This document shows, one piece after another, positions 309 to 33,710 of a stretch of DNA of 51,550 nucleotides (position 1 is the stretch's first letter; every line of letters begins with the position of its first letter). A program made the translations under genes and the position numbers. The notes beneath the pieces were generated by a model. The model worked only from the letters and a program-made list of their open reading frames with translations, ran no database searches and was not told the origin of the DNA. The stretch spans positions 1 to 51,550 of the forward strand of contig JAIMJY010000002.1 of NCBI GenBank assembly GCA_020692945.1, given 5' to 3'. The stretch comes from Caldisericum sp. Lineage in GTDB: Bacteria > Caldisericota > Caldisericia > Caldisericales > Caldisericaceae.

Positions 309-1187
309 ATGAATAAAAATGAAATTTTAAATAAGTTTCTCCTTAGTATTATTATGAAAGGCTATTCAGCAACAACTGTACGTTACTATACTTATATTAT
401 TAAGGATTTTTTCAAAGAATTTGACTATCCTGATTATAATAATGTTCAGAAGTATTTTGCAAAGAAAGTCAAAATAACAAAGAACTCTCGAGCTACGCAA
501 ATAAGAATACTTAGAAGCCTCGCAAGATATATACAAAAAGAGTATGAGAAAAAATTTGAGCTACCTGATGCTCCAAAAACTTCAAATACATTGCCAATTT
601 TTCTGGGAAAAGAAGAAATAGACAAACTTTTAGATGCGGCAAGAAGCAATATTAGAGACTTCTCAATCATTTCATTTATCTTATTTACAGGTGTGCGAGT
701 TAGTGAACTTGTCAACCTTAAAATTAATAATGTCAATATTAAAGAAAGCTATATAAAAGTAAAAGGTAAGGGCGAAAAAGAAAGAATGATACCGCTTTCG
801 GATGAACTATCAGTTCTCTTAAAAGAGTACCTTAAGCAAAGAAATACTGACTCCGATTTTCTTTTTATAAGCAAATTTTCAGATAAATTTACTCCCCTTT
901 CAATACAACTCATCGTTAAAAAATATTCCAAAAAAGCAAATTTACAAAAAAAAGTATCGCCTCATAAGTTAAGACACACTTTTGCAACGCTTGCACTTGA
1001 GGCAGGGGTTAGTCCAATTACCATTAGTGAACTTTTGGGTCATAGCTCTCTTAACACTACGATGAAATATACTCATGTTACTAACAAATTGGCAGAAGAT
1101 GCAGTGCGTAGAATAAGTCAATCAACAAATTTTAAGGATTTTATACCAAAAACTAAAAAGACTCCAGGGATATCTGGAGCCAAGTAA
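309..1187 (+). CDS. Tyrosine site-specific recombinase, XerC/XerD type
   Basis: A 292-residue tyrosine recombinase, the normal size for Xer proteins that resolve chromosome dimers at dif. An N-terminal SAM-like core-binding domain (about 1-90) precedes the catalytic domain. All catalytic residues are visible: Arg130 in TGVRVSEL, Lys154 in KGKGEKER, His219 and Arg222 in HKLRH, His245 in LLGHSS and the nucleophile Tyr254 in MKYTH. It stands alone, convergent with the peroxiredoxin gene, with no second recombinase, attachment site or cargo nearby. That favours a housekeeping Xer over an integrase, although the exact subfamily (XerC, XerD, XerA-like) cannot be decided here. Its last codons contain the inverted repeat that serves as a terminator for the opposite strand. 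Confidence 0.85.
   Translation: MNKNEILNKFLLSIIMKGYSATTVRYYTYIIKDFFKEFDYPDYNNVQKYFAKKVKITKNSRATQIRILRSLARYIQKEYEKKFELPDAPKTSNTLPIFLGKEEIDKLLDAARSNIRDFSIISFILFTGVRVSELVNLKINNVNIKESYIKVKGKGEKERMIPLSDELSVLLKEYLKQRNTDSDFLFISKFSDKFTPLSIQLIVKKYSKKANLQKKVSPHKLRHTFATLALEAGVSPITISELLGHSSLNTTMKYTHVTNKLAEDAVRRISQSTNFKDFIPKTKKTPGISGAK
1148..1179 (-). terminator. Rho-independent terminator of the peroxiredoxin gene, inside the recombinase CDS
   Basis: On the minus strand CTCCAG (1174-1179) pairs with CTGGAG (1162-1167) across a 6-base loop and is followed by TCTTTTTAGTTTTT. The stem-plus-U-tract has the right polarity for stopping minus-strand transcription. It lies wholly within the 3' end of the opposing recombinase gene. 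Confidence 0.6.
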
Positions 1188-1202: not shown

Positions 1203-1853
1203 TTACTTTTCTTCTAATTTCTTGTGGCAGAACCACCAATCGTAACATTCGTACTTTGTTGGTCTTTCTTGAGCAGTTTTTACATCAGCAGCAGGAGGAA
1301 TGATTACATCACCTTTGATTAATTCGTTATTAGGTCATCCGGCAGGCGTTGCAACACCGTATTTGTCAGTTGTTTGCAGAGCTTTAATGGCCCTCAAAAT
1401 CTCATCGATGTTTCTTCTTACTTCTTGAGGGTAGTAGAGCATAAGTCTTAGAATTCCTCTGTCGTCAATTATAAATACTTCTCTTACAGTGTTTGTGCCT
1501 TTGCCTGGATGAATCATACCAAAAGCTTCGGCAACTTTCCCTGTTCCATCTGCGATAATAGGAAACTGGATTTCAACTCCTAATTTCTCTTTAATCCAAT
1601 CAACCCATTTAATGTGCGATTGTACCTGGTCAATTGAAAGCCCAAGCAACTCTGTGTTAAGCTTTTTGAACTCATCAAAACGTTTCTGGAAAGCAACAAA
1701 CTCTGTAGTACAAACAGGAGTGAAATCTCCTGGGTGGCCGAAAAGAACAAGCCACTTTCCAACGTAGTCGTTTGGTAGCTTCTTTAAACCAAAAGTCGTC
1801 TTAACTTCCATCTCTGTAACTTTTTCTCCGAGCAATGGAATTCTTCCTTCCAT
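1203..1853 (-). CDS. 1-Cys (Prx6-type) peroxiredoxin with in-frame TGA at a conserved Trp codon
   Basis: Thiol peroxidase that reduces hydrogen peroxide and organic peroxides. The peroxidatic Cys48 (codon TGT) sits in [12 protein letters not shown]. The uninterrupted frame stops at a TGA (1335-1337, codon 173) after TPAG. The same frame then continues for 43 codons to a TAA at 1203-1205, encoding [14 protein letters not shown] and the C-terminal YECYDWWFC. Archaeal-type homologues, such as the Pyrococcus horikoshii protein as I recall it, read WPNNELIGDKVIVPP and ECYDWWFC in this place and are about 216 residues long. The TGA therefore replaces a conserved Trp, and full length with readthrough is 216. 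Downstream Trp codons in the same tail are TGG. A point nonsense mutation, stop readthrough or a sequencing error could each explain it. The start has a GGAGGTG site 4-5 bases upstream. Confidence 0.85.
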
Positions 1854-1880
1854 AATTCACCTCCATATATATTTAATTTC

Positions 1881-1908
1881 ATTATATAATATTCTTTATC
1901 TATGTTAA
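1881..1908 (-). promoter_or_regulatory. Peroxiredoxin promoter
   Basis: On the minus strand TTAACA (1903-1908) and TATAAT (1881-1886) are separated by 16 bases. A GGAGGTG ribosome site (1858-1864) follows, then the ATG at 1853. The -10 element is half of the palindrome ATTATATAAT (1881-1890), which also offers a TATAAT facing right. Confidence 0.7.
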
Positions 1909-2047
1909 TAGTTTAGAATAGTTTTAAATGAAACTTTTGTATTGAGTCTTTCGACGGGCACAATTTAAAATAATTTTTAGCCCTCCTTAAGAAGCTTTTT
2001 GCAATTCAAGAATTTAAATTATAATAACTACGCAAGAAGGTGAAAAA

Positions 2048-30162: not shown

Positions 30163-32619
30163 ATGTTACTTGATATTTTTGACCCGGTAAAGAGAAACTT
30201 AAAGAGATACTGGGAAATAGTAAATATTGTAAACTCCTTTGAGGAAAAAATTTCAATACTTTCCGATTCTGAATTAAAATTGAAAACTGCTGAGTTTAAA
30301 GAAAGATTTAATAATGGAGAGACCGACCAATCTATACTTCCCGAAGCTTTTGCAGTTGTAAGAGAAGCCGCAAAAAGAACTATCGGAATGCGTCATTTTG
30401 ATGTCGAAATCCTCGGAGGTATTGTCCTCTACGATGGAAATATTGCAGAGATGAAAACAGGTGAAGGAAAAACGCTTGTTGCCACACTTCCTTTATACTT
30501 GAATGCACTTAAAGGGCATGGTGGGCATCTTGTTACAGTTAACGATTACCTTGCAAAAAGAGACAATGAATGGATGGGTCCTGTCTACAATTTCCTAGGG
30601 CTTTCAGTCGGGCTCATACAGCATGACTCTTCATATGAAGAAAGAAGGAAAGCCTACAACTCAGACGTTACATATGGCACAAATAACGAGTTCGGATTTG
30701 ACTACTTGAGAGACCACATGGCTGTAGCGAAAGACCAAATCGTCCAACGTGAACTCTACTATGCAATCGTTGACGAAGTCGATAGTATTCTTGTTGACGA
30801 AGCTCGTACTCCGTTAATTATTTCGGGACCTTCCGAGGAATCAACTGAAATGTACTACACAGCAAAAAAGGTTGCCGAGAAACTTGAACAGGGCGTTGAT
30901 TTTGAGAGCGACGAAAAATTGAAAACAATAAATCTAACAAAGGAAGGCGTTGAAAAAGTAGAAAACCTATTAAGAATAGACAATCTTTTTGACGAAAAAT
31001 TCGTCGATGTTGTGAAACATATTAACCAGGCGGTTAAAGCTAAAGCAAAAAATTTTTTTGAGAGAGATGTTGCCTATATTGTAAAAGATGGGGAAGTTAT
31101 AATTGTCGATGAATTTACCGGCAGATTGATGTTTGGAAGACGCTACAGTGATGGACTTCATCAGGCGATTGAGGCAAAGGAAGGGCTCAAAGTTAAAAGT
31201 GAAAGCCAAACGCTTGCAACAATTACTTTCCAAAACTACTTCAGGCTTTATGAGAAACTTGCAGGAATGACTGGCACTGCTCTTACTGAAAGAGATGAGT
31301 TTAAGGAGATTTACAACCTTGATGTCTATGTTACGCCAACCAATAAGCCCGTTATAAGGATAGATCATTCAGATGTTGTTTACAAAACTGAAACTGCAAA
31401 GTTCCGTGCAATTGTTAATAAAATAAAAGAACTCTACGATAAGAGTCAGCCAGTGCTTGTTGGCACCAGATCCATAGAAAAATCAGAAAGACTCTCTTCT
31501 ATGCTTAAAAAAGAAGGTATTCCTCACAACGTTTTGAATGCAAAATATCACGAGAAAGAAGCAATGATTATCAAAGATGCTGGTCAGCCTAAAACAGTAA
31601 CAATTGCAACAAATATGGCTGGAAGAGGCGTTGATATAAAACTTGGGCAAAACGTTACAAATTTGGGCGGGCTTTTCATCCTTGGAACTGAGCGCCACGA
31701 GGCAAGGCGAATTGACAACCAGCTTAGAGGGCGTTCAGGAAGGCAAGGAGACCCGGGGGAATCACAATTTTACATCTCTCTCGAAGACGAACTAATGAGA
31801 ATCTTTGGCGGCGACAGGATAAAAAGCCTTTTGACAACGCTAAACGTCGATGAGAATGAGCCAATACAGCACGCGATACTTTCGCATACGATAGAGAGTG
31901 CCCAGAAGAAGGTAGAATCATATAACTTTAGTATAAGAAAGAACTTGCTTGACTATGATAACGTCCTTGAAAAGCAAAGAGAAGTCATATATGGTGAGCG
32001 TGATAAAATATTACAACAGGGAACCATAAAAGACGATATACTGAGCATGGTCATTGAAATAGCTGAAAAAGTTGTACTTACGCACTTCTTCGATAATGGT
32101 GAAGTTGATAGGGAAAACATAAAAGCACTACAATCTTCTACTTCTGCATTTTTTAACAGGCCTGTATCTCTTGATTTTAATAAGATGGAAAGTCTAAGCC
32201 AAGAAACGATAGTAGAAGAAATCAATAACCTTGCTTTGAAACTTTATGCTGAAAAAGAGGCTGAGATAGGTCCGGAGCTTATGAGGCAGATAGAGAAGTA
32301 TGTACTTCTTCGCTCGATTGATTCGAATTGGAAAGACCATCTATATGCAATGGATGATCTTAAAGAGGGAATTGGATTACGTGCCTATGGACAGCAAGAC
32401 CCACTAATTGCCTATCAGAAAGAAGCTAAAGAGCAACTTTTTGATCCAATGATGGAACGCGTGAAAGATGATACCGTAAGAACGCTCTTTAGAATAACGA
32501 TTAACAAAGAAGAAAAAGATAGCGGTAATGAAACGAAAACAAGTGCTTCGATTTCAAAAGATGATCGAAAAAAGAGAAGAGAAGAAGAGAAGAAATTGAA
32601 GAAGAAGAGAAAGTTATGA
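30163..32619 (+). CDS. secA: Preprotein translocase ATPase SecA
   Basis: Motor that drives secreted proteins through SecYEG. Walker [12 protein letters not shown] lies near 97-107, the DEAD-like [13 protein letters not shown] near 203, and NMAGRGVDI and [13 protein letters not shown] are the second helicase domain motifs. The 818 residues stop in a basic tail ([17 protein letters not shown]) and lack the usual zinc-binding C-terminal linker that contacts SecB. Many SecB-less bacteria share this. The TGA overlaps prfB as ATGA. Confidence 0.97.
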
Positions 32620-33710
32620 TTTCTGATGAATTAAAACGCGATATACAACAAACAATCGAGAAAATGGACACAGCCCTTGATAAACTTTGGTATGAAGAGA
32701 AGCATACTAAAATAAAAGAAACCGAAGCCAAATGTGGAACCCAGAATTTCTGGCAGCAGAGCAATGCAAAGGAGACACTGAAAACTCTTTCCCTTTTGAA
32801 AAAAGAAGTTGAAAAATTCGTAAGCATAAAAAAAAATAAAGAAGAACTTGAGGTAATGATTGAGATTTATAGTGAAACTGATGAACCAATGGATAGAGAG
32901 ATTCAACGGGTACTTAACGAAGCAAAAAATAAACTTAAAGAATGGGAAATAGAACGTTACCTTTCCGATCCATACGATGATCTTAATGCTTTTGTTTCTT
33001 TTTCAGCAGGTGCTGGTGGTGTCGATGCAATGGACTGGACGGAAATGCTTTTGAAAATTTACCTGCGCTGGGCTGAGAAAAAAGGCTTTGAGGCAAAGAT
33101 ACTTGACCAGACATTTGGGGACGAAGCTGGCGTAAAAAGTGCAACAGTTTACGTTAAAGGCGATTTTGCATACGGACTTTTGAAAGGAGAATCAGGCGTG
33201 CACCGATTGGTTAGAATTTCTCCTTTTGATGCTAATAAAAGGCGACATACTTCTTTTGCCCTTGTTGAGGTGCTGCCAGAGCTTGAGGATGTAGAAGATA
33301 TCGAAATAGACGAGAAGGATCTAAAAATAGAAATATCTCGTTCCAGCGGACATGGCGGGCAGAACGTTCAGAAAGTAGAAACAGCCGTCAAAATCATACA
33401 CATTCCAACTGGAATAACGGCTGAGTGCCAGGATGAGCGTTCTCAACTTCAAAACAAGAACATGGCACTCAAAGTACTGAAATCAAGACTTCTACTTTTT
33501 GAAAAGAAAAAGAAAGAGAGCAAATTAAAAGAAATAAAGGGTGAATTTAAATCAATAGAGTGGGGCAATGAGATTCGTTCATATGTTTTACAGCCTTATA
33601 AATTAGTGAAAGACCACAGGAATAACTTTGAAACAGGAAATGTTGATAAAGTGCTTGAAGGAGAAATTGATGAGTTTATATGGGCTTATCTTAAAAGTCA
33701 GAAACAATAA
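32616..33710 (+). CDS. prfB: Peptide chain release factor 2
   Basis: Recognises UAA and UGA stop codons. The SPF-type recognition motif is in [12 protein letters not shown], and the catalytic GGQ in [11 protein letters not shown] lies at about 246-248. The 364 residues are read in one frame. Codons 24-25 are CTT TGG, precisely where many bacteria have the CTT TGA of the programmed +1 frameshift; the SD-like stimulator is also missing. RF2 is therefore made here without that autoregulation. The gene overlaps secA by four bases. Confidence 0.95.

Follow-up and report, generated by a model that had tools for sequence, protein, structure and literature searches.

A peroxiredoxin gene of a Caldisericum-family bacterium, here called PrxA, is interrupted by an in-frame TGA, and behind it the same frame continues intact. 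Is this TGA a codon that is read as an amino acid, the end of a shortened enzyme, or a mark of a gene that is being lost? The gene lies in a window of 51,550 nucleotides, the whole stretch of DNA that was analyzed. This window is contig C2 of a draft genome of 1.5 Mb (207 contigs, 99% complete). The open part of PrxA (1335..1853, minus strand) encodes 172 amino acids, and its final codons are ACG CCT GCC GGA TGA. The TGA is codon 173 (1335..1337, minus strand) and is followed by CCT. Past the TGA the frame runs for another 43 codons (1206..1334, minus strand) to a TAA at 1203..1205, which represents the end of the ancestral frame. With TGA read as Trp the total length is 216 amino acids. The initial annotation had described the stop and the 43-codon continuation in the same way, and the observation was confirmed. 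A Shine-Dalgarno-like GGAGGTG is intact 5' of the ATG (1858..1864, minus strand).

PrxA is a Prx6-type peroxiredoxin. A Pfam match to AhpC-TSA (PF00578, E 1.9e-30) covers residues 9-137, and the PxxxTxxC motif is present as PGDFTPVC. The closest relatives with solved structures were 6q5v, 6itz, 3w6g and 2cv4. The codons for the peroxidatic Cys48 (1710..1712, minus strand) and the catalytic Arg124 (1482..1484, minus strand) are intact and H40 is also retained; H40 and R124 align with His41 and Arg125 of 6q5v, in which the active site consists of Cys49, His41 and Arg125 (PMC6572100). The 1-cysPrx_C domain was placed by Pfam at residues 158-197, and the open frame stops inside it, with only its first 15 residues included. 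The complete C-terminal arm, consisting of 1-cysPrx_C and the CxDWWFC motif, is missing from the product of the open frame and is encoded only 3' of the TGA, where the motif reads CYDWWFC. This motif is shared by PrxA and most archaeal Prx6 members, in which its cysteines govern a redox-dependent change between dimer and decamer (PMC6572100). PrxA resembles the archaeal-type enzymes from Sulfolobus islandicus (6q5v), Pyrococcus (3w6g) and Aeropyrum (2cv4/1x0r) in its full length of about 216 amino acids, the PxxxTxxC motif, the His/Cys/Arg site, the 1-cysPrx_C domain and the WPNNE sequence, and the earlier description of the gene as archaeal-type with a conserved tail was correct. Unlike these enzymes, PrxA has a stop inside the arm domain and carries G146R, A125E and S39G at invariant or nearly invariant positions.

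Codon 173 was compared among orthologues found in Caldisericota and in a set of species records of bacteria and archaea. TGG was found in all 98 aligned orthologues, and the TGA of PrxA is therefore private to this genome among those compared. Relative to all 98 the stop is premature, as in nonsense pseudogenes. Across the phylum, 17 of 54 genomes had a strong orthologue, the copy studied here included, and this copy alone had TGA. No genome of the same genus was among those compared, and the nearest PrxA orthologues are consequently just 70-77% identical. Conservation of the TGA, which the initial annotation had proposed as a check, was not observed in these orthologues. Stops at nine further loci of the phylum (L003, L006, L010, L014, L027, L028 and L032-L034) were considered as possible recurrences of the TGA and rejected, being true gene ends or lying outside the gene. 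The tail behind the TGA, which had been described as free of decay, is as well conserved as the body. Compared with the nearest family member, the tail has an identity of 0.72 and the body 0.75; compared with two others, the values are 0.82-0.85 for the tail and 0.74 for the body. The stop is therefore young, or the tail is still in use.

Three changes were located in the part of PrxA that precedes the stop. G146R (AGA; 1416..1418, minus strand) replaces a Gly found in 98 of 98 orthologues and encoded by GGN in the relatives checked. A125E (GAA; 1479..1481, minus strand) lies at a position with Ala in 95 of the 98 orthologues and Glu in none, and S39G (GGC; 1737..1739, minus strand) at one with Ser in 97 of 97.

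The only other peroxiredoxin matched in this genome by homology search, PrxB, was found to carry the same kind of lesion, a result beyond the reach of the initial annotation, which was confined to the window. PrxB is a BCP-like peroxiredoxin of 150 amino acids (contig C205, 3274-3723, minus strand) with a TGA at codon 96. The stop lies in the context LLSDF-TGA-PHGG, at an invariant Trp site with TGG in all 29 orthologues, and the TGA CCT (Trp-Pro) context is common to PrxA and PrxB. TGA was found in none of the 98 PrxA and 29 PrxB orthologues, a set with no genome of the same genus. The PrxB stop divides the fold in half, ahead of the catalytic Arg position. At that position PrxB has R117Q, a Gln in place of an Arg present in 29 of 29 orthologues. 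Automatic pairwise alignment left a one-residue gap at the catalytic Arg, and Arg117 of PrxB was matched by hand to Arg124 of PrxA and Arg125 of 6q5v, six residues before the following Asp in both. With the catalytic Arg gone, a PrxB made by readthrough is most likely inactive. PrxB was found through being a peroxiredoxin, so the two genes are no unbiased sample.

Changes specific to this lineage at otherwise invariant sites numbered 5 of 59 in PrxA and 2 of 32 in PrxB, nonsense changes excluded. The corresponding numbers in two control genes were 2 of 142 (MetK) and 9 of 128 (GlgC), nearly all of them conservative. The counts for the peroxiredoxins are not far above GlgC and only the radical nature of their changes stands out. 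It is the kind of change, not the number, that suggests relaxed constraint.

These residues also bear on whether PrxA could be a deliberately shortened enzyme, a 172-residue form that lacks the arm domain and works as a 1-Cys peroxiredoxin. The catalytic domain is complete, with C48, H40 and R124 in place, and the Prx6 decamer of Sulfolobus forms without arm cysteines (PMC6572100). However, the Sulfolobus enzyme keeps its arm domain despite lacking these cysteines, and in PrxA the domain itself is cut. G146R and A125E fall in the retained part, and in PrxB the same event halves the fold. A functional short form was considered improbable.

A general reassignment of TGA was rejected. Among 294 long open reading frames in 0.5 Mb of the genome, 141 end with TAA, 100 with TGA and 53 with TAG; about a third therefore end with TGA, in line with the earlier remark that TGA is a normal stop elsewhere. 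As a control, 0.5 Mb of the genome was aligned to 1141 open reading frames from a relative with a complete genome (G006), which gave 318 regions with about 97,000 aligned codons and 413 conserved Trp positions; about two thirds of the genome was covered by homology search alone. Apart from those of the two peroxiredoxins, none of the more than 400 conserved Trp aligned with an in-gene TGA. As far as could be judged, the stops remaining in the control alignments lay before the start codon of a gene, in a frame of the antisense strand or in a poorly aligned stretch. PrxA and PrxB aside, no other genuine interior stop was found in the approximately 97,000 codons, which shows that TGA is not generally recoded. 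As read from these alignments, the in-frame TGA lesion is specific to peroxiredoxins within the sample and does not reflect a genome-wide code. An apparent one-base deletion was seen to split an HD-GYP/HD-domain gene (contig C137, about 1000-1012, plus strand), which is about 82% identical to its relative on both sides; the frameshift is apparently either a pseudogene lesion or a consensus error.

The same control bears on the quality of the draft. The true population sequence might be TGG at one or both sites, in which case the TGA would come from a faulty consensus or assembly or from a variant strain in the minority. The genome is in 207 contigs, one of which ends 1.2 kb from PrxA, and the HD-GYP frameshift could likewise be an error. 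Against this stand the aligned codons with no further genuine interior stop, by which two errors both falling in peroxiredoxins are very unlikely to arise by chance. An error or strain variant was regarded as unlikely, though less so than a working short enzyme.

The initial annotation had offered two explanations for the TGA: either TGG changed to TGA very recently, or the codon is partly read as Trp, with an enzyme in two forms as the outcome. The first is favored by the present results. The second found no support in the universal TGG of the orthologues, in the S39G, A125E and G146R changes of PrxA, in R117Q of PrxB, or in the decoding machinery and RNA signals. Known systems of UGA-to-Trp suppression or recoding include the Hirsh-type tRNA-Trp and the tRNA-Trp with anticodon UCA of genetic code 4. 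Like PrxA, they have UGA where Trp is conserved. Unlike them, this genome has TGA as a common true stop and a tRNA-Trp with anticodon CCA and an unmutated D arm (G24). This was the single tRNA-Trp found, and it shares 94-96% identity with its counterparts in family members. A suppressor tRNA-Trp was rejected on the match of its anticodon and D arm to those of relatives, and no other suppressor tRNA was found in a draft tRNA list that may be incomplete. The gene for release factor RF2 (prfB, window 32616-33710) is complete, and its product has both the SPF and the GGQ motif. No stimulatory RNA structure was detected at the TGA of PrxA or PrxB, where fold z-scores of 0.2 to 1.6 were no better than those of shuffled sequences.

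Programmed or regulated UGA-to-Trp readthrough of both peroxiredoxins, in which stress or the supply of Trp would tune the short and long forms, was judged very improbable on these grounds. Its long PrxB would lack the catalytic Arg and its short PrxB would be half a domain. The probability was not set at zero because of a single piece of positive evidence, the coincidence of TGA-CCT at a conserved Trp-Pro in both genes, with frames that continue and no other sampled gene alike. The UGA-C context is leaky and the PrxA tail is intact, as such a system would have it. A redox-linked regulon could also be imagined that needs no suppressor tRNA, the long active forms being made only when UGA termination is slow or mistranslation high, for example in oxidative stress; this version is just as hard to credit. 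If readthrough were true, it would place a bacterial redox regulon under UGA-to-Trp decoding. To our knowledge there is no example of a bacterial redox regulon controlled in this way, and a literature search gave no report on recoding of Caldisericum peroxiredoxins.

Selenocysteine at the PrxA TGA is the least credible of the readings and close to refuted. Peroxiredoxins are a known selenoprotein family, and a distant relative has TGA at the peroxidatic Cys. At the PrxA site, however, the residue in orthologues is Trp, not Cys, and all PrxA Cys codons are present. Neither SelA nor a tRNA-Sec above the family cut-off was found in the 99% complete genome. The distant relative is a peroxiredoxin of an unrelated genome (L023, G059:C72, about 1501-1968, minus strand), in which the TGA, in the context FTFV-TGA-ATE, is not at the PrxA site; it is likely a selenocysteine peroxiredoxin.

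The explanation that best fits the observations is ordinary recent gene loss, and PrxA and PrxB are probably two young pseudogenes or genes nearing loss. A recent TGG to TGA nonsense mutation would have arisen in PrxA and another of the same kind in PrxB. Ribosomes translating PrxA would normally terminate after residue 172, ahead of the arm domain, to give a product without the CYDWWFC cysteines, and just trace near-cognate readthrough would be expected at the TGA. The host peroxide defense would no longer depend on PrxA and PrxB, while two intact rubrerythrins stay. Two adjoining intact rubrerythrin-family open reading frames were found (contig C86, 31748-32883) and are candidates for the remaining peroxide defense. 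A relaxed need for peroxiredoxins would explain why both genes are hit. Many relatives are without PrxA, PrxB or both, and no close PrxA or PrxB was found by homology search in five family members (G001, G004, G005, G010 and G014). Further decay in the genome was seen in the HD-GYP frameshift and in a transporter remnant near PrxB. From these data we infer loss of function, its recency, and relaxed selection as the common cause.

Two features of PrxA speak against gene loss. The catalytic triad and the ribosome-binding site are kept, and the tail is free of decay. The state of the tail tells no more than that the stop is young and, if PrxA is being lost, it is a warning that a frame preserved past a stop is not in itself a sign of readthrough. 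Like young bacterial nonsense pseudogenes, PrxA and PrxB have a single point mutation to a stop, an intact frame 3' of it, a patchy presence in relatives and changes at key residues. Unlike the usual cases, two members of one superfamily share an identical codon change, in both at Trp-Pro. Counting transitions only, Trp to TGA makes up 6 of the 19 nonsense paths in PrxA and 3 of the 11 in PrxB. Each gene has a single Trp-Pro site, which corresponds to one path out of 19 in PrxA and one out of 11 in PrxB, a joint chance of about 0.5%. A methylation hot spot at GGCC, converting TGGCC into TGACC, received no specific support, GGCC being equally depleted in the relative G006 (914 observed for 1359 expected versus 1786 for 2714). 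If gene loss is the correct explanation, the genome is a snapshot of a bacterium shedding both peroxiredoxins within a short time with its rubrerythrins kept.

Two observations were made beside the peroxiredoxin genes. At the contig end, an open reading frame for a XerC/D-like tyrosine recombinase (window 309-1187, plus strand) converges on PrxA. Near PrxB, an open reading frame of 93 amino acids (contig C205, locus L136, 652-933, plus strand) consists of the apparent start of an ABC ATPase fused to the terminal portion of an ABC-2 permease and was probably left behind when a deletion joined two adjoining transporter genes.
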